Assembly (NCBI RefSeq): GCF_000024405.1
Contig: NC_013517.1
Span: 1,612,001 to 1,676,000, forward strand
Direction: 5' to 3'
Length of the DNA: 64,000 nt
DNA from: Sebaldella termitidis ATCC 33386
GTDB taxonomy: Bacteria > Fusobacteriota > Fusobacteriia > Fusobacteriales > Leptotrichiaceae
Part shown: piece by piece, positions 18,407 through 62,717 of the stretch
Position numbering within the stretch: position 1 is the first letter of the stretch
How the letters are laid out: the number at the start of each line of letters is the position of its first letter
Program-made: the position numbers and the translations under genes
The notes under the pieces: model-generated
The model's input: only the letters and a program-made list of their open reading frames with translations
Databases searched by the model: none
Told to the model about the DNA's origin: nothing

Positions 18407-21400
18407 ATGAAAGAAAAACCAAAAAAACTGATGAATACGATCTTTTTACTATTGGCAATAAATTCCGTTTCTATGGCCAAAGAGGTAAAAGAGGAAAACG
18501 AATTCATTATCTTAGGGACAGAATATAAAATGTCTGATAAAAATAAAAAGTTAAAGAAATTATCTAATACAAACAATGAAAAACCGGAAAATTTGTCTGA
18601 TGATACTGAAGGCTCTGATGAACCGTCTGATGATTCTGCAGGTACTAAGGACTCAGATAGCGAAACAGAAAAAATAACTGTGATAAAAGAAAATGGCGTA
18701 GTTAAAGCAGAAAAAACAGCTTTTGGAAGTTCGCTGAGCTATGAAACTACGGGAAATATTCTGGGAAATGACAATACAGGGTTATGGGCGGCGGATAATA
18801 ATACAAGTGTAGCAAATAAATATATTATAGAATCATATTATACAAATAATGAGGCTAAGAATTTTTCAGCAGAAATAGTAAAAAATGCAAATTTTATAAA
18901 TGAAGGAACAATAGGCGGGAACAGAGGCGGGGTGCTTCTCCAGTCCGGTGCTGTAATGTCAAATGAAGGAACAATTAATAATACAGGAGATTACGGGATA
19001 TATCTGGAAGATTCCGGAACTGTACTGAATAATTATTCTGCTGGGAAAATAGAGAATTATGGGAATTATGGAATTTTTCTTAATGAAGGAACTAAAGCAG
19101 AGAATAACGGTCTTATAGCAAACAGAGGAAAATTCGGGATATACATTAATAACGGCGAGGCTGTTAACAGCGGAGTGATAGAGAATAATGATGATTTTGG
19201 TATATATGCTCTAGGCAGTGAGTCTGTTATTGAAAATAATGGGACAGTAAAAAATACCGGGAATTACGGCTTGTATGCTGGAAATGAAGCGAAAACCGCA
19301 AATAATGCAGAAGGAATAATAGAAAATACCGGTGATTATGGAATATACACAGAAGGTAACAAAAGTATAGCTGAAAATTTCGGGATTGTCAGTAATGAAA
19401 AAGCATATGGAATGATAGCAAAAAACGGCGGAACAATTGTAAATACAAAAAATGGAATTGTAAACAACGGAACTGATTATGGAATGTATGTTGATGGTAC
19501 AGGAAGTACAGCTCAAAATAACGGTAAAATAAAAAATGACGGTAATAGTGGAATACATGCAGTTTCAGGCAGTGAAGGAATAAACAGTGAAACCGGAATA
19601 ATACAGAACACTGGTAATGTAGGAATGTATTCAGAATCAGGAAGCAAAACATTAAATTATGGGAGAATAGAAAATAGCGGATTATATGGTATGTTTACAG
19701 CAGATAACAGTCAAGGCTATAATTATGGAGAGATAAAAAATAATTCTAGTAATGGTGCATATGTGACTGGTTCAGGTTCTGTTTTTATAAATGAAGAAAC
19801 AGGAATTATATCAAATAATGGAAAAGACGGTATACATATAAGCTCTTCTGCAGAAGGTATAAATAAAGGAATAATAGCTAATAATGGAACAGAGGGCATG
19901 TATGTGGAAAGTCAGGGGCAGGGGAGAAATTTTGGAGAAATAAGAAATACATCAGATAATGGTGTATATATAAATGGAGCTGGTTCCAGATTTGTAAATG
20001 AAGAAACAGGTGTTATATCAAATGCAGGAACAGGAGGAATTTATGCGACTTTTGGAGGAACGGTAGAAAATAAAGGAGTTATATCAAATAATGGAAAAAC
20101 TGGAGTATTTATAACCAATAACAGTCGTGGATATAACTACGGAGAGATAAGCAATACCTCAGGTTATGGTGCATATGTAATAGATGCAGGCTCTGTTTTT
20201 ATAAATGAAGAGACTGGGATTATATCTAATGCCGGATCAATAGGAATTTATGTACTGGAAGGAGGAAGAGCAGAAAATAAAGGACTTATATCAAATACTG
20301 ATACAGATGGTATGTATATAGCTAGTGAAGGTCAGGGATATAATTACGGTGAAATTAGGAATAGTTCAGATAATGGTGTATATATAACAGGAACAGGCTC
20401 GATTTTTGTGAATAAAGAAACAGGAATAATAGCTAATGAAGGTAATTACGGGATATATTCAAAAATGCTTTATTCAGGTATTCAGCCGATAGTAATAAAT
20501 GACGGAACCATACACTTAACAGGTGATAATAAAACAGGGGTATATATAAATAATACTAATTTTACAAATAACGGGATAATACGTATAGATGGAGAGAATG
20601 CAACAGGAATAAAAGCAGAAAATAACAGTACAGTAAGAATAGGACAGAATTCACAGATAATTCTTGACGGGAACAGTCCTGTAACTCAGACAAATACTGA
20701 TTATGAAGATACTGCGAGTATAGGGGCAAACAATAGCAATTCCGGCGGCAGAGCCTATGTTCTGGATAGTACATCTACATTAGTAAATGCGGGAACTATA
20801 ACAAGTTCTGGAAAATTCACAGTAGAAAGTGAAGGAAAATTTGTGCTGGATACACAAACAGGAGAGATAGAGGCTTCTACACTGAATTTAGAGGGAGATA
20901 TGTATCTAAATGCTGAGGGAACTCTGGATTCATCAGAAGACAGCTATCTTTTGAAAAGTGTAAAAGTAAATGATGTAACAGGTACAGGAAGTATAGTATC
21001 GGATTCATATTTATTCACGGCTTCTGCGGAAAAAGACGGAGACAATTACAGCATGGTAATGAAAAGAAAAGATTTTAGCGATGTGTTTAGCGGAGATTTG
21101 GGCGAAGTGCTTGAAAATAATTATTCAGGTTCTGAAAATAATAATGTTCAGAATGCTTTGTATAATTCATTAAAGAAAAATGTGACTTCAGAAGCTTTAG
21201 CCAAAACAGCACAGGAAGAAATAACAGGTGAAAGTATAACAGCAAATTTGACATATCAGCAGCTTCAGCAGAACAAAATACTCGAAGATGGTATATTTCA
21301 ATTATTAGATAAAAAATCAGATGTTAATCAGGGATTTTATCTCAATTTTCTTGGCGGAAATACAAAGGCAGATACTAAAGAAAATGCCCTTGGTTATGAT

Positions 21401-22162
21401 GAAGACAGCTATGGCTTTACAGCCGGAATAATGAAAAAAGCCGGAGATAAAACATCTGTCGGCGGATTTGTCGGCTATCTTAATTCTGATGTAGATTACA
21501 GAGATGACAGTAAATCCAGCCAGACTACAGATACATGGACAATAAAAGGAGCTGTAGAACAGATAATAACAGATAAACTGACATGGACAAGTACTCTTGG
21601 TTATAATATCTCATCAACTGACACAAGCAGAAAAATAACTTATGATAATACAAACCGAGAAGTAAATGGAGATTTTGATTCATGGTCTGTAAATGCTAAA
21701 ACACAATTGAAATACACTTATGATATAACAGACAGAATAAATTTACGGCCAATGGCAGGGATAAGCGTGGATTACTTATCACAGGACGGCTATACAGAAA
21801 AAGGAAACGGATACAGCATGGACGTAAAAGCAGCAGATGCTTTTTCAGTAAGACCTGAAATTGGACTGGAATCAGAAATGACAGTATTTAATAATAATAC
21901 TTCAAGCTTTAAAGTAATACCAAAAGTAAAATATTCTTATGAAGTGGGAAATCCTTATAAAGACAGAGATATAAATCTTGCAGGATTTAGTGATGCAGTA
22001 TCTGTAGATTCAAGAGAGACAGGAAGAAATGATCTGAATCTCGGTCTTGGAATAGAATATGGATTTAAAGATAAAATAAAATTATATGGAGAATATAATA
22101 AAGGAATAGCAGACGGTAATGATAATCAGGTCATAAGAGCAGGATTTAAAATAGCATGGTAA
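18407..22162 (+). CDS. Complete autotransporter with 69-residue passenger super-repeats
   Basis: A 1251-residue type Va autotransporter. A Lys-rich start and hydrophobic stretch ending 'SVSMA-KE' form the signal peptide (about residues 1-24), followed by an acidic Ser/Asp-rich segment (about 60-85). The passenger (about 100-880) consists of Asn/Gly-rich beta-helix repeats; residues 437-690 form long super-repeats. A linker and a beta-barrel of about 280 residues follow ('GFYLNFLGGNTKADTKE' onward), ending in the aromatic 'FKIAW'. SD AGGAAGTGAG precedes ATG. It is monocistronic between a promoter and a terminator. The first autotransporter (1-2363) shares style but not obvious sequence. Ligand unknown; adhesion is the family's usual role. 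Confidence 0.92.
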   Translation: MKEKPKKLMNTIFLLLAINSVSMAKEVKEENEFIILGTEYKMSDKNKKLKKLSNTNNEKPENLSDDTEGSDEPSDDSAGTKDSDSETEKITVIKENGVVKAEKTAFGSSLSYETTGNILGNDNTGLWAADNNTSVANKYIIESYYTNNEAKNFSAEIVKNANFINEGTIGGNRGGVLLQSGAVMSNEGTINNTGDYGIYLEDSGTVLNNYSAGKIENYGNYGIFLNEGTKAENNGLIANRGKFGIYINNGEAVNSGVIENNDDFGIYALGSESVIENNGTVKNTGNYGLYAGNEAKTANNAEGIIENTGDYGIYTEGNKSIAENFGIVSNEKAYGMIAKNGGTIVNTKNGIVNNGTDYGMYVDGTGSTAQNNGKIKNDGNSGIHAVSGSEGINSETGIIQNTGNVGMYSESGSKTLNYGRIENSGLYGMFTADNSQGYNYGEIKNNSSNGAYVTGSGSVFINEETGIISNNGKDGIHISSSAEGINKGIIANNGTEGMYVESQGQGRNFGEIRNTSDNGVYINGAGSRFVNEETGVISNAGTGGIYATFGGTVENKGVISNNGKTGVFITNNSRGYNYGEISNTSGYGAYVIDAGSVFINEETGIISNAGSIGIYVLEGGRAENKGLISNTDTDGMYIASEGQGYNYGEIRNSSDNGVYITGTGSIFVNKETGIIANEGNYGIYSKMLYSGIQPIVINDGTIHLTGDNKTGVYINNTNFTNNGIIRIDGENATGIKAENNSTVRIGQNSQIILDGNSPVTQTNTDYEDTASIGANNSNSGGRAYVLDSTSTLVNAGTITSSGKFTVESEGKFVLDTQTGEIEASTLNLEGDMYLNAEGTLDSSEDSYLLKSVKVNDVTGTGSIVSDSYLFTASAEKDGDNYSMVMKRKDFSDVFSGDLGEVLENNYSGSENNNVQNALYNSLKKNVTSEALAKTAQEEITGESITANLTYQQLQQNKILEDGIFQLLDKKSDVNQGFYLNFLGGNTKADTKENALGYDEDSYGFTAGIMKKAGDKTSVGGFVGYLNSDVDYRDDSKSSQTTDTWTIKGAVEQIITDKLTWTSTLGYNISSTDTSRKITYDNTNREVNGDFDSWSVNAKTQLKYTYDITDRINLRPMAGISVDYLSQDGYTEKGNGYSMDVKAADAFSVRPEIGLESEMTVFNNNTSSFKVIPKVKYSYEVGNPYKDRDINLAGFSDAVSVDSRETGRNDLNLGLGIEYGFKDKIKLYGEYNKGIADGNDNQVIRAGFKIAW
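19715..20470 (+). repeat. Tandem 207-base (69-codon) repeats within the autotransporter gene
   Basis: Three full units at 19715-19921, 19922-20128 and 20129-20335 and a partial fourth from 20336 are in exact 69-codon register. Each starts G-[YR]-N-[YF]-G-E-I, carries V-[YF]-[IV]-N-x-E-T-G-[IV]-I in the middle and ends with a G-M-Y- or G-V-F-type turn. Each unit looks like three 23-residue coils. Confidence 0.8.
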
Positions 22163-51499: not shown

Positions 51500-51525
51500 G
51501 ACTGGTATATTTCCGGTCTTTTTTC
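51500..51525 (+). terminator. Terminator of the MerR gene
   Basis: GACTGG (51500-51505) and CCGGTC (51513-51518) pair with one G-T pair, followed by TTTTTTC. Confidence 0.6.
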
Positions 51526-51607: not shown

Positions 51608-51637
51608 TTGGACAATTCCTTCTGAATATATTATAAT
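51608..51637 (+). promoter_or_regulatory. Promoter of the RNase-inhibitor-lol operon
   Basis: TTGGAC (51608-51613), an 18-base spacer and TATAAT (51632-51637), giving a leader of about 90 bases. Confidence 0.55.
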
Positions 51638-51736: not shown

Positions 51737-52324
51737 ATGAAAAAGTTAATTTTAGTTATAAGTGCACTGCTTCTTTTACTTATAGGAGGTTTTTATTTTT
51801 GGGATTTGAGAAATGAAGTGTCTGAAATAAAAGCAGCAGTAACAGAGCAGGCTGAAAATACCAATGCTGAAAAGAAGAATATCAAAGAAACAGCGGAGGA
51901 GAGTAAAGAGGAGATAAAAGAAAATATAAAAAGAGAAACTGAGCCAAAAAACAATATGGCAGAAAAAAAGAGCATACAGAATAACCAAAGCATAGATGCT
52001 CTTACAGAAGAAAAAATAGTAACGGATTATCTGAAAGAAAACGGAGAGCTTCCTGAATATTATATAACAAAAAAAGAAGCACAGAGAGAAGGCTGGGTTG
52101 CCAAAGAGGGAAATTTATGCGATGTGCTTCCGGGAAGGGCAATCGGCGGTGACATCTTTACTAACAGAGAAAAAACTCTTCCTGTAAAAAAGGGAAGAAT
52201 CTGGTATGAAGCAGATATAAACTACGACTGCGGAAGAAGAAATGCCCGAAGAGTTGTTTATTCAAATGACGGATTAATATTTGTTACCCATGATCATTAC
52301 AAAAATTTTGAAGAAATAAAATAG
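51737..52324 (+). CDS. Barnase-like guanyl-specific ribonuclease with export/anchor segment
   Basis: A 195-residue protein. Residues 3-21 are a hydrophobic signal or membrane anchor; residues 25-85 are a charged helical, probably coiled-coil linker; residues about 88-195 are a microbial RNase domain close to barnase: 'DYLKENGELPEYYITKKEAQ', 'EGWVAKEGNLCDVLPGRAIG', 'GDIFTNREKTLP', 'IWYEADINYDCG' and 'ARRVVYSNDGLIFVTHDHYK'. The barnase catalytic residues K27, E73, R87 and H102 correspond to K112, E158, R172 and H187, so it should be active. There is no lipobox; whether the anchor is cleaved is unclear. The gene is immediately followed by a barstar-like inhibitor gene. Confidence 0.9.
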   Translation: MKKLILVISALLLLLIGGFYFWDLRNEVSEIKAAVTEQAENTNAEKKNIKETAEESKEEIKENIKRETEPKNNMAEKKSIQNNQSIDALTEEKIVTDYLKENGELPEYYITKKEAQREGWVAKEGNLCDVLPGRAIGGDIFTNREKTLPVKKGRIWYEADINYDCGRRNARRVVYSNDGLIFVTHDHYKNFEEIK

Positions 52325-52349
52325 CTTAATAAAAGTGCAGGTTTTGAAT

Positions 52350-52637
52350 ATGAATAATATAGTTATTGATTTTAAAAATATAAACAGCAGAAAAGATTTT
52401 TATCTGCAGTTAAGAAAAAAATGTGAGCTTCCCGAATATTTTGGCGATAATCTTGATGCATTGTGGGATGTACTTACAAGCGGGGAACTGGACTTTCCTC
52501 TTACGATTTCATTTACCAATTTTAATAAAAATAAAAACGGGTTTTACAGGGATCTTTATGAGCTTCTGAAAGATGCTGAAAAGGAAACAGAAAAAAACAT
52601 TATTTTTAAAATAAACAGAGGAGAAAATAAATGGTAG
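52350..52637 (+). CDS. Barstar-like ribonuclease inhibitor
   Basis: A 95-residue cytoplasmic inhibitor. 'LPEYFGDNLDALWDVLTSG' is the barnase-binding helix of the barstar family; D36, W39 and D40 correspond to barstar D35, W38 and D39, which plug the RNase active site. ATG 52350 is preferred because GCAGG lies eight bases upstream and the barstar N-terminus aligns from there; a GTG at 52335 is possible. It lies 25 bases after the RNase gene, and its 3' end overlaps the lolC/E gene by seven bases, so inhibitor and transporter are translationally linked. Confidence 0.9.
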   Translation: MNNIVIDFKNINSRKDFYLQLRKKCELPEYFGDNLDALWDVLTSGELDFPLTISFTNFNKNKNGFYRDLYELLKDAEKETEKNIIFKINRGENKW

Positions 52638-53788
52638 AGTTATTTATAGCGGTCAGACACTTAAAGGAGAGAAAATTTCAAAGTATATTTTCAATACTGG
52701 GAGTAGCAATATCGGTAACGGTGCTTATGGTTTCACTTACAGTGTCAAACGGACTGGAGAAAAATATGCTGAAATCCCTGCTTACTCTGAATCCGCATAT
52801 TGTTCTTACTAAAGGAAACGGGGATGTTTCCGAAGATTACATGGATGTAAAAAAGAAAATAGAGGAGATAAACGGGGTAAAAGGTGTTATTCCCAAGTAT
52901 ACAGCACAGTCTATCATAAAGACCGATGAGTATGCCAAAGGAGTGCTGGCAAACGGAATACCCAATGAAGATCTGGAAAAAACCATTGATCTGAAAATGG
53001 TGGCAGGGAAGAAATCTCTTCCTGAACTGGATTCCGCAATAATAGGTGAGGAAATGGCTTATGAATTCGGCGGACTGAAGGTAGGGGACGATATAAAAGT
53101 TATTACAACGGAAAATAAGGAAGTAAGATTCAAAATAAGCGGAATATTTAAAACCGGTTATTATGAATATGACAGAAATCTTCTTTTGATACCGCTGCAG
53201 ACTATGCAGATATTACAGGAAAGAGGAGAAGTTATTTCCGAAATAGATGTCATGCTGAATAATCCCAAAGATGCAGAGGCCGTAAAACAGAAAATAGAAA
53301 AGCTGGGCTTTAATTATCAGGTAAATACATGGGGAGAGCAGAATCAGCAGCTGCTTAATGCAGTAAAATTCGAGAAATTCGTACTTGTGTCATTATTGCT
53401 GCTTATAGTGATAATAGCATGTTTCGCAGTCTCGGTAATATTGAATATGGTAGTAAGAGAAAAAATAAGAGATATAGGGATATTGCGTTCTATAGGATAC
53501 AGCGGAAAAATGGTGAAAAAGATTTTTACTATAGAAGGTCTGATAATAGGAGTTTTGGGGATTATTTCCACATTTGCGCTGGTGCCGCTTGTACTGTTTG
53601 TACTGGACAAGCTCTTTAATAAAGTAGTGTCAAATACTTATTATCTTGATAAACTTCCGCTTTCTATTACATTAAAGGAAATAGGGATTATTTATCTGGT
53701 AACAATTATAATTGTATATTTATCGACACTTTATCCTTCTTACAGAGCTTCAAAACTAAATCCTGTGGAGGCGCTAAAACATGACTAG
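52631..53788 (+). CDS. Lipoprotein-releasing ABC transporter permease (LolC/LolE family)
   Basis: A 385-residue inner-membrane protein of the FtsX/MacB type. One membrane segment near residue 20 ('FQSIFSILGVAISVTVLMVS') is followed by a large periplasmic domain (about 45-255) and three C-terminal segments, with 'NMVVREKIRDIGILRSIGYS' as the cytoplasmic coupling region and 'YRASKLNPVEALKHD' as the conserved end. It extracts lipoproteins for transfer to the outer membrane. Only one permease gene is present, so it probably works as a homodimer. The stop overlaps lolD by eight bases. Confidence 0.9.
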   Translation: MVELFIAVRHLKERKFQSIFSILGVAISVTVLMVSLTVSNGLEKNMLKSLLTLNPHIVLTKGNGDVSEDYMDVKKKIEEINGVKGVIPKYTAQSIIKTDEYAKGVLANGIPNEDLEKTIDLKMVAGKKSLPELDSAIIGEEMAYEFGGLKVGDDIKVITTENKEVRFKISGIFKTGYYEYDRNLLLIPLQTMQILQERGEVISEIDVMLNNPKDAEAVKQKIEKLGFNYQVNTWGEQNQQLLNAVKFEKFVLVSLLLLIVIIACFAVSVILNMVVREKIRDIGILRSIGYSGKMVKKIFTIEGLIIGVLGIISTFALVPLVLFVLDKLFNKVVSNTYYLDKLPLSITLKEIGIIYLVTIIIVYLSTLYPSYRASKLNPVEALKHD

Positions 53789-54461
53789 AATTTTAGATTT
53801 AAAAAATATAAATAAAATATATGAAACAAAGGTAGAAAAGCTGGAAATACTGAAAAACATTAATTTGGAGCTGAATACCGGAGACTTTATTTCTATACAG
53901 GGAAAGTCAGGAAGCGGAAAAACAACACTCTTGAATATTCTGGGGCTTCTTGATTCACCTACAAGCGGTGAGGTTATTTATGACGGCATAAATGTTGATT
54001 TTAAAAAAGAAAATCTGAAAAATACTTTGAGAAATGAGAAAATAGGTTTTGTATTCCAGTTTCATTATCTGCTTCCGGAATTTTCAGCTTTGGAAAATGT
54101 GATGCTTCCTGCACTTGTAAGAAAAAAAGCAGACAAGGAAATCGTAAGAAAAAAAGCAGAGGATTATCTGAATATGGTAGGACTCGGCGGAAGACTTACG
54201 CATAAGCCGTCGGAGCTTTCAGGCGGGGAAAAGCAGAGAGTAGCAATAGCAAGAGCAATGATAAATGATCCTGCAGTGATACTCGCGGATGAACCCACAG
54301 GAAATCTCGATGTGGACACAAGTCAGACAATACATGATCTTTTTTTTAAGATAAATAAAGAAAAGAGTCAGGCTATTATTATAGTTACACATAGTCTGGA
54401 ACTGGCAGGGATTACAAAGGAAAAATTTGAAATAAAAAAGGGGAAATTAGAAAAGTTATAA
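53781..54461 (+). CDS. lolD: Lipoprotein-releasing ABC transporter ATPase LolD
   Basis: A 226-residue ATPase with Walker A 'GKSGSGKTTLLNILGLLD', signature 'LSGGEKQRVAIARAMINDPA', Walker B 'VILADEPTGNLDVDTS' and 'IVTHSLELA'. 'IGFVFQFHYLLPEFSALENV' is the characteristic LolD/MacB Q-loop region. ATG 53781 overlaps the permease gene, so the pair is coupled. Together they supply the energy for lipoprotein release in this Gram-negative envelope. Confidence 0.93.
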   Translation: MTRILDLKNINKIYETKVEKLEILKNINLELNTGDFISIQGKSGSGKTTLLNILGLLDSPTSGEVIYDGINVDFKKENLKNTLRNEKIGFVFQFHYLLPEFSALENVMLPALVRKKADKEIVRKKAEDYLNMVGLGGRLTHKPSELSGGEKQRVAIARAMINDPAVILADEPTGNLDVDTSQTIHDLFFKINKEKSQAIIIVTHSLELAGITKEKFEIKKGKLEKL

Positions 54462-54522: not shown

Positions 54523-54843
54523 ATGAATATAATAATCAGTGGAAGACGCCTTGAGGTCACTGAACCTATCAAAAAATATGCTGAAGAAAAAATCGGAAGG
54601 GTGAATAAGTATTTTGATCATATTACTGAAATTGACGTTACGCTTTCAGTAGAAAAAAGTAAAGTGGAAGGGGAGATCCATAGAGCAGATGTGTTATTGT
54701 TCGGTAACGGACTAAAATTAAAAGTGGAAATGGAAGACAAAGATTTGTATGCGGCAATAGATAAAGCGACTGATGTATTGGAGCGAAAAGTGAGACAGCA
54801 TAAAGAAAAATTAAAAGACCATAATAAAAAAGGAACACATTAA
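54523..54843 (+). CDS. hpf: Ribosome hibernation promoting factor, short form (HPF/RaiA family)
   Basis: A 106-residue protein with the beta-alpha-beta-beta-beta-alpha fold of the family: 'MNIIISGRRLEVTEPIKKYA', 'DVTLSVEKSKVEGEIHRADV' and 'EDKDLYAAIDKATDVLERKV' with a basic tail 'RQHKEKLKDHNKKG'. It lacks the C-terminal dimerisation domain of long HPF. The family binds the 30S subunit and silences ribosomes in stationary phase. GGGAGGA precedes ATG. Own promoter and terminator. Confidence 0.93.
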   Translation: MNIIISGRRLEVTEPIKKYAEEKIGRVNKYFDHITEIDVTLSVEKSKVEGEIHRADVLLFGNGLKLKVEMEDKDLYAAIDKATDVLERKVRQHKEKLKDHNKKGTH

Positions 54844-54889: not shown

Positions 54890-54957
54890 CATAGTTTAGT
54901 TTACGGAAATTATGAATTAATGTATTGCAGTTTTTAGAAAGAAATGAGGGATTTATT

Positions 54958-55932
54958 TTGTCAAAGGAATTATTAGCGGAACAAATTGCCGGCTGGCATG
55001 CAGCAGGAGAGCATAATAAAATCTGTGAGGCTGTTCTTGCCCTGCCGGAGCAGGAACAGACAGACGAGCTGATCTGTCTTCTTGCACGGGCTTTGAATAA
55101 TAAGGATGATTTTTGCGGTGCTTTGGAAGTACTTGACAGCATTCGGAACAGATATTCCGATAATCCGTTTTTCTGCGTGCGTTACGGCTTTGCTCTTTAT
55201 CAGCTTCACAGAGAGCATGAAGCACTTGACTGGTTTAGAAAGGCTCAGGCAGGAGGGCTTGAAGAGATTAATGAGACTCCCGGTACATATCATCCTAAAA
55301 GTATAGCAAAATGGATAATATTTGCAGAACGCTGGGCACCGCGGCGTATCGAAAAAAATGCATTTGAAGCAGAGTGCAGGATAAAAAGAAGCAGGGAGCC
55401 GCAGCATGCTGATTTTACGGATTTTGATTTTTCCGGTTTTTGGGATGATTGCGATTATTCTCTTGAAAAATATACAGGGAATACACCTGCTGATACAGAG
55501 ATTGAAGAAGCGGAAGCAGAACTAGGCTACCGCCTGCCGGAATCTTATAAAGCACTTGTCAGACTTCATAACGGCGGTCTGCTTCTCGATAAATATTTTG
55601 AAAATCCTTTGCAAAGAGAATGGGAACCGCAAATTTTCGGGATCAGCAGTATTTATGGAATCAGCAGTGATAAAATGTATTCTTTGACTGGAGACAGAGG
55701 AAGCAGATTTTGGATTACAGAATGGGGCTATCCCGATATCGGGGTAGCGGTTTGTGACTGCCCAAGCGGCGGACATGATATGATTTTTCTGGATTATTCC
55801 GACTGTGGACCTGAGGGAGAGCCATGTGTTGTTCATATTCATCAGGAAGGGGATTATGAGAGAACTTATCTGGCTGATAATTTTGAGGATTTTGTAAGAG
55901 GGCTGATTTCCATGGACGAAGACGGGGAATAA
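54958..55932 (+). CDS. TPR plus SMI1/KNR4 (SUKH) domain protein
   Basis: A 324-residue cytoplasmic protein. Residues about 1-110 form TPR-like helices ('LICLLARALNNKDDFCGALE', 'RYGFALYQLHREHEALDWFR'). Residues about 180-320 are an SMI1/KNR4 domain: 'IEEAEAELGYRLPESYKALV' then 'LHNGG', 'GISSIYGIS', 'ITEWGYPDIGVAVCDCPSGG' and 'DMIFLDYSDCGPEGEPCVVH'. SUKH domains are often immunity proteins against contact-delivered toxins, but many are not. TTG 54958 is chosen because GAGGG lies seven bases upstream; TTG 54925 is an alternative. The gene is visibly richer in G+C (CTG, GCC, GGC codons) than its neighbours, which suggests transfer from a Firmicute-like source. Confidence 0.85.
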   Translation: MSKELLAEQIAGWHAAGEHNKICEAVLALPEQEQTDELICLLARALNNKDDFCGALEVLDSIRNRYSDNPFFCVRYGFALYQLHREHEALDWFRKAQAGGLEEINETPGTYHPKSIAKWIIFAERWAPRRIEKNAFEAECRIKRSREPQHADFTDFDFSGFWDDCDYSLEKYTGNTPADTEIEEAEAELGYRLPESYKALVRLHNGGLLLDKYFENPLQREWEPQIFGISSIYGISSDKMYSLTGDRGSRFWITEWGYPDIGVAVCDCPSGGHDMIFLDYSDCGPEGEPCVVHIHQEGDYERTYLADNFEDFVRGLISMDEDGE

Positions 55933-60592: not shown

Positions 60593-61105
60593 ATGAAAAA
60601 AATAATACTGACAATGTTTTTTATGAGTATTTTAGCATTTTCAAAAGATTTTTGGGAGTTAAGTAATTTCAGCGTAAATGTAAATGAAACGACAAGCTCC
60701 GGAAAATCAAAAGCATATACAATGGTGTATAAAGGCGGGACACTAAAAGTAACAATCAATTCACCGTCTGTAAATAAGGGAGAGGTTTATACTTATTCGG
60801 GAAGCCAGAAAACAATATATTATCCGTCGCTGAAGCAGACGGTTACCCAGAATGTAGACAGTGACGAGGCGAATTTTCTGAATATAATAAACATGTTAAA
60901 ATCTATAAACGGAAAAAATACTGTTACCAAAGGAGATAATAAGTTCGTGTTCAGTGATTCCAAATTAGTTTCGATAGAAACAAAGGAATATACGGCATCC
61001 TTTTCGGGATATACAAGTTCAGGCGGGAATACATACCCCAAAACAGTAAGAATTTCTGAAAACGGCAAAACAAAAATTACTTTTAATCTTTCTAATTTTA
61101 AATAG
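60593..61105 (+). CDS. Small exported protein, possibly LolA-like
   Basis: A 170-residue protein with a signal peptide (about 1-17, 'IILTMFFMSILAFSKD'). The mature part is beta-rich: 'FSVNVNETTSSGKSKAYTMV', 'KGGTLKVTINSPSVNKGEVY', 'TIYYPSLKQTVTQNVDSDEA' and 'PKTVRISENGKTKITFNLSN'. That pattern of an unclosed beta-sheet with a late 'P-K-x-[IV]-x-[IV]' strand resembles LolA/periplasmic lipoprotein carriers, but similarity is weak and no motif is decisive. ATG 60593 has GGAGGA about eight bases upstream. It lies between mreC and recO in the same direction. Confidence 0.65.
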   Translation: MKKIILTMFFMSILAFSKDFWELSNFSVNVNETTSSGKSKAYTMVYKGGTLKVTINSPSVNKGEVYTYSGSQKTIYYPSLKQTVTQNVDSDEANFLNIINMLKSINGKNTVTKGDNKFVFSDSKLVSIETKEYTASFSGYTSSGGNTYPKTVRISENGKTKITFNLSNFK

Positions 61106-61108
61106 TTT

Positions 61109-61768
61109 ATGGATATACTAAAAACTGAAGGAATTGTAATAAAAAAGACAAATGTCAAGGAAGCAGACCTTGTACTGAAGGTATTTACAAAGGAATATGG
61201 AAAAATAGATATTTATATAAACGGAATAAGAAAATCAAAAAGAAGAGAGAAACTGGCTGTAGAATTAATGTCCGTAACGGATTTTCTGATATATGAGAAA
61301 AACTCGAAATATTCTTCGAATTCATTTACACTTACGGCTTTTTTCCCGAAAATACAGCTCAGTTTTCTCAAACTGAAATATTCTTATTACCTGCTTCACC
61401 TTATAGATAAAATTTATGAGCATAACTCGGAAGATATTGAATTTTACGAAAAGATAAAAAATTTATTTGGGTACATAAATACATTATCCGAGGATGAGAA
61501 AAAAACTGAAATCCTTCTCAGCTATCTGGTACTTTATCTTTTGAAGGATATTATACTTACACAGGGAATATATGAACATGAGAATATTCTGAATCTTACT
61601 GAAAAAGATAACAGGGAAAAGCTTCTGAATATTTTGAACAGCTCGGCTAAAGAAGTAATAAACAGCAGCTTATATACAATAGATGAAATAACAGAAATGA
61701 TAATTTCTCTGGAAAAATATATAAATTATAATTTAAACAGAAATTTGAACTACAAATTTTTTGTTTAG
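61109..61768 (+). CDS. recO: DNA repair protein RecO
   Basis: A 219-residue protein with the RecO N-terminal OB fold: 'KTEGIVIKKTNVKEADLVLK', 'FTKEYGKIDIYINGIRKSKR' and 'LMSVTDFLIYEKN'. The helical C-terminal part is present, but I see no four-Cys zinc site. RecO loads RecA with RecR. ATG 61109 is three bases after the previous stop without a strong SD, so translation probably depends on the upstream gene. Confidence 0.87.
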   Translation: MDILKTEGIVIKKTNVKEADLVLKVFTKEYGKIDIYINGIRKSKRREKLAVELMSVTDFLIYEKNSKYSSNSFTLTAFFPKIQLSFLKLKYSYYLLHLIDKIYEHNSEDIEFYEKIKNLFGYINTLSEDEKKTEILLSYLVLYLLKDIILTQGIYEHENILNLTEKDNREKLLNILNSSAKEVINSSLYTIDEITEMIISLEKYINYNLNRNLNYKFFV

Positions 61769-61779
61769 GAGGGAATGAT

Positions 61780-62241
61780 ATGAGTATAAAAATAATAGAT
61801 TACCTTGATAAAGATTTGATAAATCTGAATCTGAAATCAAAAACAAAAAATGAAGTAATAAAAGAATTAATGAAAACAATGCAGGAGTCTGAAAAAGTAA
61901 CAGCCCCTGAACGTGCATTAAGCGGTCTTTTTGCAAGGGAAGAACTGGGTACGACTGGAATAGGGAAAGGTGTGGCAATTCCCCATGCTAAGACTGACGC
62001 TGTAACAGATCTTCTTGTAGGCTTTGGTATTTCAAGGGAGGGAATAAATTACGGTTCTATGGATGAGGAGCCTGTAAAAATATTCTTTATATTCCTTTCT
62101 CCTCTTAGCGGTAATCAGGAATATCTGAAAATTCTGGCTAGAATATCAAGATTAATAAGAGAAGATAAGTTTAGAAACAGTCTTTTAGCAGCAGATACAC
62201 CGGAAAAAATTATAGAGATAATAAATAACGAAGAAAGTTAA
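61780..62241 (+). CDS. ptsN: PTS EIIA domain protein, fructose/nitrogen-regulatory type (PtsN-like)
   Basis: A 153-residue single EIIA domain of the mannitol/fructose/Ntr class. 'GIGKGVAIPHAKTDAV' contains the phosphorylated His (H69), and 'EEPVKIFFIFLSPLSGNQEY' followed by 'LKILARISRLIREDKF' is the family's second half. No EIIB or EIIC is adjacent, so a regulatory role as in PtsN is more likely than sugar uptake; the symbol is a best guess. AGGAGGG precedes ATG. Member of the mreC-recO-nrdR cluster. Confidence 0.85.
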   Translation: MSIKIIDYLDKDLINLNLKSKTKNEVIKELMKTMQESEKVTAPERALSGLFAREELGTTGIGKGVAIPHAKTDAVTDLLVGFGISREGINYGSMDEEPVKIFFIFLSPLSGNQEYLKILARISRLIREDKFRNSLLAADTPEKIIEIINNEES

Positions 62242-62252
62242 GAGGTGTTCTT

Positions 62253-62717
62253 ATGAAATGTCCATTTTGTGGTAGCGATAATACAAAAGTAGTTGATAGT
62301 CGTAATCATCTTGATGGAACTACAATAAAGAGAAGAAGAGAATGCGAAAACTGTGAAAAAAGATTTACAACCTATGAAAAAATAGGTGATCTTTCTCTGC
62401 GGGTAGAAAAAAAGAGCGGTTTTGTAGAGCTTTATTCTAGAGAAAAAGTATTTAACGGTATCATGAGAGCTCTTGAAAAAAGATCTGTAGACATGGAAAA
62501 AGTGGAAGAAATACTGGAAAAAATAGAGCGTGATATTTTGACTAAATACAGCGGTCTTGTGAAGTCAAGCGAGCTGGGAGATATGACCCTGTCTTATCTT
62601 TTGGATTTGGACGAGGTAGCATACGTAAGATTTGCATCAGTATATAAAAAGTTTAACAGCCTGGAAAATTTTTTGAAGGAAATAGAAAAAATAAATTTTG
62701 AAAGTGGGAAAAAATGA
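62253..62717 (+). CDS. nrdR: Transcriptional repressor NrdR
   Basis: A 154-residue regulator of ribonucleotide reductase genes. The N-terminal zinc ribbon uses C3, C6, C31 and C34 ('MKCPFCGSDNTKVVDSR', 'RRRECENCEKRFTTYE'), followed by the ATP-cone ('KKSGFVELYSREKVFNGIMR', 'VAYVRFASVYKKF') that senses ATP/dATP. Complete length. AGAGGTG precedes ATG. It overlaps the next gene by four bases (ATGA). Confidence 0.96.
   Translation: MKCPFCGSDNTKVVDSRNHLDGTTIKRRRECENCEKRFTTYEKIGDLSLRVEKKSGFVELYSREKVFNGIMRALEKRSVDMEKVEEILEKIERDILTKYSGLVKSSELGDMTLSYLLDLDEVAYVRFASVYKKFNSLENFLKEIEKINFESGKK

Follow-up and report, generated by a model that had tools for sequence, protein, structure and literature searches.

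A predicted membrane-anchored barnase and its barstar ahead of lolF-lolD in Sebaldella termitidis: probably an ordinary exported RNase-inhibitor pair in an old genomic position

The barnase-barstar pair of Bacillus amyloliquefaciens consists of an exported RNase of the N1/T1 family (PF00545), devoid of any disulfide in its wild-type form, and of an inhibitor (PF01337) that stays in the cytosol (PMC8625414). Simple pairs of this kind have been described as "widely distributed" (Zhang et al., 2012; PMC3482391). The RNase domains and inhibitors of the Tox-Barnase/Imm-Barstar couples of polymorphic toxin systems belong to these two families as well. As for lipoprotein release, the operon form in which a LolF permease gene is coupled to lolD has been described as the commonest one (PMC11784454). 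In the window analysed here, a stretch of 64,000 nucleotides of the Sebaldella termitidis ATCC 33386 genome, open reading frames and profile searches reveal the two kinds of genes side by side: between positions 51737 and 54461 of the forward strand, genes for a barnase-type RNase and a barstar are followed by those of a lipoprotein-releasing permease and its ATPase (Table 1).

Table 1. Features of the barnase-barstar-lolF-lolD locus, in positions of the 64,000-nucleotide window.
Feature	Position	Strand	Evidence
Terminator-like hairpin with T run, 3' of the upstream merR-type gene	51500..51518	+	Pattern scan: 3 found against 2.9 expected by chance; weak alone
Promoter-like site (TGGACA-17-TATAAT) of the four-gene unit barnase-barstar-lolF-lolD	51609..51637	+	11/12 matches, pattern scan
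Predicted membrane-anchored barnase-type RNase, 195 aa	51737..52324	+	PF00545, 1bne match, fold
N-terminal hydrophobic signal-anchor (predicted), residues 1-23	51737..51805	+	Hydropathy, alignment
Charged linker, residues 24-87 (~64 residues), fast-evolving	51806..51997	+	dN/dS, model confidence
Barnase catalytic domain, residues 88-195	51998..52321	+	Catalytic equivalents, 82-sequence alignment
Cys128 (barnase position 43)	52118..52120	+	Cys in 82/82
Cys165 (barnase position 80)	52229..52231	+	Cys in 82/82
Barstar-type inhibitor, 95 aa, without signal peptide	52350..52637	+	PF01337, fold, interface residues
lolF, single-type lipoprotein-releasing permease (LolC/E-like)	52631..53788	+	TIGR02212, 250.9 bits (below equivalog cut-off)
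lolD, ATPase	53781..54461	+	TIGR02211, 271.9 bits (below equivalog cut-off), best of 190 families

Profile, residues and fold together confirm that the RNase belongs to the barnase-type family, and RNase activity is predicted on this basis. The protein scores 58.9 bits against Pfam Ribonuclease (PF00545; cut-off 24), its residues 95-194 align with barnase 1bne (phmmer E 4e-38), and the Foldseek top match of its predicted structure is again 1bne, with a TM of 0.95 and an rmsd of 1.0. The protein has equivalents of K27, D54, E73, R83, R87, H102 and Y103 (barnase numbering), every one of them invariant across an alignment of 82 sequences, composed of the 80 best genomic loci, the S. termitidis RNase and that of its relative G089. 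The N-terminus shows a hydropathy peak of 2.5 at residues 4-22, and neither hydropathy nor alignment points clearly to a lipobox or a site of cleavage in the S. termitidis protein; it is therefore read as a signal-anchor, which could instead be a cleaved signal peptide. The model draws one continuous long helix over residues 2-63, of low confidence from about residue 50, and is confident for the barnase domain. These results agree with the earlier note, which had described, from the sequence, an exported or anchored RNase with barnase catalytic residues and a coiled linker of about 60 residues, followed by a barstar-like inhibitor. When S. termitidis is compared with two other Sebaldella genomes, dN/dS is 0.07 to one and 0.16 to the other for the barnase domain, indicating strong purifying selection, and 0.38 and 0.47 for residues 1-87, i.e., the anchor and the linker. 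Apart from anchor, linker and PF00545 domain, no delivery, repeat, trafficking, pre-toxin or processing domain was found in the 195 residues.

The downstream gene encodes a barstar-family protein (66.5 bits against PF01337; cut-off 23.4), and its model matches the barstar folds 2cx6, 5f4c and 1b3s (Foldseek E 8e-8 to 3e-7). Its best start is the ATG at 52350, which follows an SD-like AGG at a distance of 8 bases and agrees with the starts of its relatives; a longer frame of 100 residues from the GTG at 52335 was rejected, as it has no SD. The interface residues Y29, D35, W38 and D39 are kept and E76 is replaced by D. Among 80 aligned barstars, D35 and D39 are present in all, and position 76 is acidic (E or D) in 78. 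The protein is thus predicted to be the cognate inhibitor of the adjacent RNase. The S. termitidis genome also contains a second, orphan barstar-family gene (L042:1459-1764; near 3993035-3993265 of contig C1); the only PF00545 gene of the genome is the one described here, and none is paired with the orphan.

A scan of the genome collection kept 598 stretches, among which 431 relatives were confirmed and the best 80, all outside the S. termitidis genome, were analysed. Nearly all of them come from Bacteroidota and Enterobacterales, along with three from Leptotrichiaceae, at odds with the initial expectation that such enzymes are usually found in Firmicutes. Nearly all the enzymes among these 80 are short and begin with a hydrophobic segment, and a barstar gene lies at most 1.5 kb downstream in 78 of them. 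Since its best relatives are accompanied by a barstar and simple pairs had been described as widespread (PMC3482391), the pair itself is ordinary, an example of the membrane-anchored form of barnase-barstar that is common among Gram-negative bacteria. It shares with the simple pairs of Bacteroidota and Enterobacterales the hydrophobic N-terminus, the linker, the two cysteines and the immediately downstream barstar, and differs from them by genomic position alone, no lolF-lolD following outside Leptotrichiaceae. With the Bacillus amyloliquefaciens pair, it shares catalytic and hot-spot residues and similar folds (barnase TM about 0.95, barstar TM 0.8-0.9), and presumably also the export of the enzyme and the cytosolic location of the inhibitor. 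It differs from that pair by a probable anchor and long charged linker in place of a cleaved signal peptide, by the added cysteines, and by an inhibitor gene directly downstream of the RNase gene, followed by lolF-lolD.

The cysteines at positions 43 and 80 are present in 82/82 of the aligned stand-alone Gram-negative or fusobacterial enzymes, a proportion to be read with the selection in mind: the search patterns omitted both positions, but the ranking query carried both cysteines, so that the best 80 may be somewhat enriched. A Proteus enzyme (L136) has them too. The two Firmicutes enzymes recovered from the plasmid collection, those of Acetoanaerobium and Aerococcus, have W and G at these positions, and the four toxin-borne fusobacterial barnase domains (L007-L010) lack cysteine there. 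The structure 1bne is itself that of the A43C/S80C disulfide mutant of barnase, in which the pair was engineered at the same two positions; our literature search found no paper naming A43C/S80C or a 43-80 disulfide. The pair is consistent with folding in an oxidising compartment, where the two residues could form a disulfide. No match to the canonical disulfide machinery DSBA (PF01323) or VKOR (PF07884) was found in the genome of S. termitidis, an obligate anaerobe.

Both transporter genes score below the equivalog cut-offs, lolF with 250.9 bits (TIGR02212; cut-off 362) and lolD with 271.9 bits (TIGR02211; cut-off 307.75), so that their designation as LolF-LolD-like rests on best match and gene order. 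The LolCE and LolD equivalog models are presumably tuned to LolCDE systems. A permease match is found in 95/98 genomes of the phylum, nearly always as a single copy, and S. termitidis has one full-length copy, directly 5' of lolD, as expected of the LolF type; the permease was accordingly rejected as the LolC of a LolCDE set. LolA was not found by PF03548. The locus had first been seen as a pair built into a lolCD operon, with an inhibitor gene overlapping the permease gene and translationally tied to it. The operon-like unit with a lol permease and an ATPase stands, with a LolF in place of a LolC. The overlap stands as well, 7 bases in S. termitidis, but is found there only: the barstar-lolF spacing is -7 bases in S. 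termitidis, 0 and 0 in two Sebaldella relatives, and +22 in a fourth genome, G068. As the overlap is not conserved and lolF is preceded by a ribosome-binding site of its own in 4/4 genomes (SD-like GGAGA in Sebaldella, AAAGGA in G068), the translational tie is unsupported. The constant overlap across the four genomes is that of lolF and lolD, by 8 bases; a single permease type followed by an overlapping lolD is what the locus shares with LolF-LolD transporters elsewhere.

One promoter-like site (Table 1) lies ahead of the RNase gene. About 55 bases surrounding it form a block almost identical in G089, whereas the non-coding flanks have diverged, and it is plausible, from this conserved region, that the four genes share a transcript. 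Right after lolD, the ribosome hibernation gene (54523-54843) has a promoter-like site of its own, according to the pattern scan. Just beyond it, a gene at 54925-55932 encodes a SUKH-domain protein (SUKH_6, SMI1/KNR4) whose N-terminal part is long, a member of an immunity-type family without any obvious toxin adjoining. Elsewhere in the window, a 1251-residue autotransporter with a beta-domain (PF03797) is encoded at 18407-22162.

Among 98 genomes of the Fusobacteriota, eight contain PF00545; S. termitidis itself (G000), two more Sebaldella genomes (G089 and G088) and G068 have the four genes in the order barnase-barstar-lolF-lolD. The position ahead of lolFD is specific to Leptotrichiaceae, where it is found in Sebaldella and in one other early-branching lineage, that of G068. 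The start of this order was also found on contig C23 of G067, interrupted by the contig end; this contig was rejected as representing an independent genus, its lolF fragment joining G068 and contig C48 of the same bin carrying a different, full lolF. It is probably a contaminating contig closely matching G068. In the other Leptotrichiaceae inspected, the gene directly 5' of lolF encodes a trypsin/PDZ protease in most cases and a small membrane protein in the others, and none has the barnase-barstar pair. The earlier note had suggested checking whether relatives have the lol genes without the pair, which is the case of most Leptotrichiaceae inspected. In G068 the pair sits between the protease gene and lolF, which marks its point of insertion, and no lolF or lolD follows the pair in any of the non-fusobacterial loci examined. 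In G068-like contigs, the genes 5' of the protease and the pair encode an exported protein, recO, PTS EIIA and nrdR (L046:462-2623); in S. termitidis the same genes are found some 6 kb beyond lolD (60593-62717), which suggests a local rearrangement. The small exported-looking protein adjoining recO (60593-61105 in S. termitidis; L046:462-986) has no Pfam family, the one match being a sub-threshold LolB-like one in the relative (E 0.07).

In a tree of LolF and LolD rooted on Fusobacteriaceae, Sebaldella branches first and G068 second (split 98/98). In a tree of barnase and barstar, the five Leptotrichiaceae pairs form one clade (96/79), located on the Bacteroidota side. This tree was used in place of one based on barnase only (108 columns), which holds too little signal and scatters the Leptotrichiaceae among Bacteroidota with weak forks. 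We favour one acquisition of the pair at the base of the Leptotrichiaceae followed by one later loss, a scenario that fits both gene trees; two separate gains are a possible alternative, since the clade support of 96/79 is moderate.

Our results point quite strongly to an ordinary stand-alone exported pair, i.e., a tethered periplasmic scavenging RNase with a cytosolic barstar and no link to Lol function. The RNase would be inserted in the inner membrane by its uncleaved signal-anchor, and its catalytic domain, stabilised by the 43/80 cysteine pair, would hang in the periplasm on the flexible charged linker, cutting RNA that reaches this compartment, the most likely benefit being nucleotides and phosphate scavenged in the gut. 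The barstar would stay in the cytosol and block RNase molecules that have folded prior to export. Both genes would be transcribed together with lolF-lolD without the need for any functional link to lipoprotein transport, the pair owing its place ahead of lolF-lolD to a single early insertion in the Leptotrichiaceae. The scavenging role is proposed by analogy and from the lack of toxin-delivery features. Among the three roles initially considered, that of a periplasmic nutrient RNase thus fits best, whereas those of a delivered toxin and of a captured toxin-antitoxin module found no support, a single basal acquisition fitting best, delivery and repeat domains being absent, and no similar sequence being found in 50,697 phage records.

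That the barnase domain could be released and enter competitors, barstar protecting the producer, appears unlikely. The toxin-then-immunity gene order, the nearby SUKH-domain protein, and the barnase domains that end large proteins in other Fusobacteriota (L007-L010, in open frames of 385-2678 residues) would suit such an antibacterial toxin, but these toxin-borne domains lack the cysteine pair, and the 195-residue protein has an anchored N-terminus and no delivery, repeat or processing domain. Moreover, unlike in polymorphic toxin systems, the pair occupies a stable, conserved and apparently vertically inherited locus without any array of extra immunity genes, and PADLOC matches neither the pair nor the SUKH protein. 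We consider it highly improbable that the pair is coupled to LolFD, be it through barstar translation setting the LolF level or through barstar dependence keeping the essential lolFD genes expressed. The shared promoter-like site, the adjacency kept in two early-branching lineages and the 7-base overlap speak for this coupling; against it stand the variable spacing, the SD-like site proper to lolF, the loss of the pair from other Leptotrichiaceae while lolFD stays, and the absence of lol genes next to the pairs found elsewhere. Just as improbable is the reading that the pair has stayed ahead of lolFD from the origin of the family onwards as its partner in the envelope, whether through co-regulation of the RNase with lipoprotein export or because barstar dependence helps to keep lolFD expressed; its long persistence next to lolF in two lineages could nevertheless hint at some benefit of co-expression. 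Slightly less credible still is the capture, by the lol operon, of a toxin-antitoxin module that acts inside the cell and attacks its RNA once barstar drops. Bacillus barnase is lethal without barstar and the operon is tight, but the N-terminal membrane segment, present in S. termitidis and in nearly all relatives inspected, and the cysteine pair argue against such a module, as do the old, stable position, the lack of phage matches, and the four plasmid-collection matches, all located in replicons of 0.6-4.1 Mb.

In S. termitidis, what precedes lolF is thus a barnase-barstar pair, and not the protease or small membrane-protein gene of most other Leptotrichiaceae inspected, and this arrangement is a marker of early branching within the family. 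Our analysis removes a false lead and brings instead a modest, testable point. With cysteines exactly at the engineered A43C/S80C sites, this predicted anchored Gram-negative barnase would allow a natural version of the bond to be tested.
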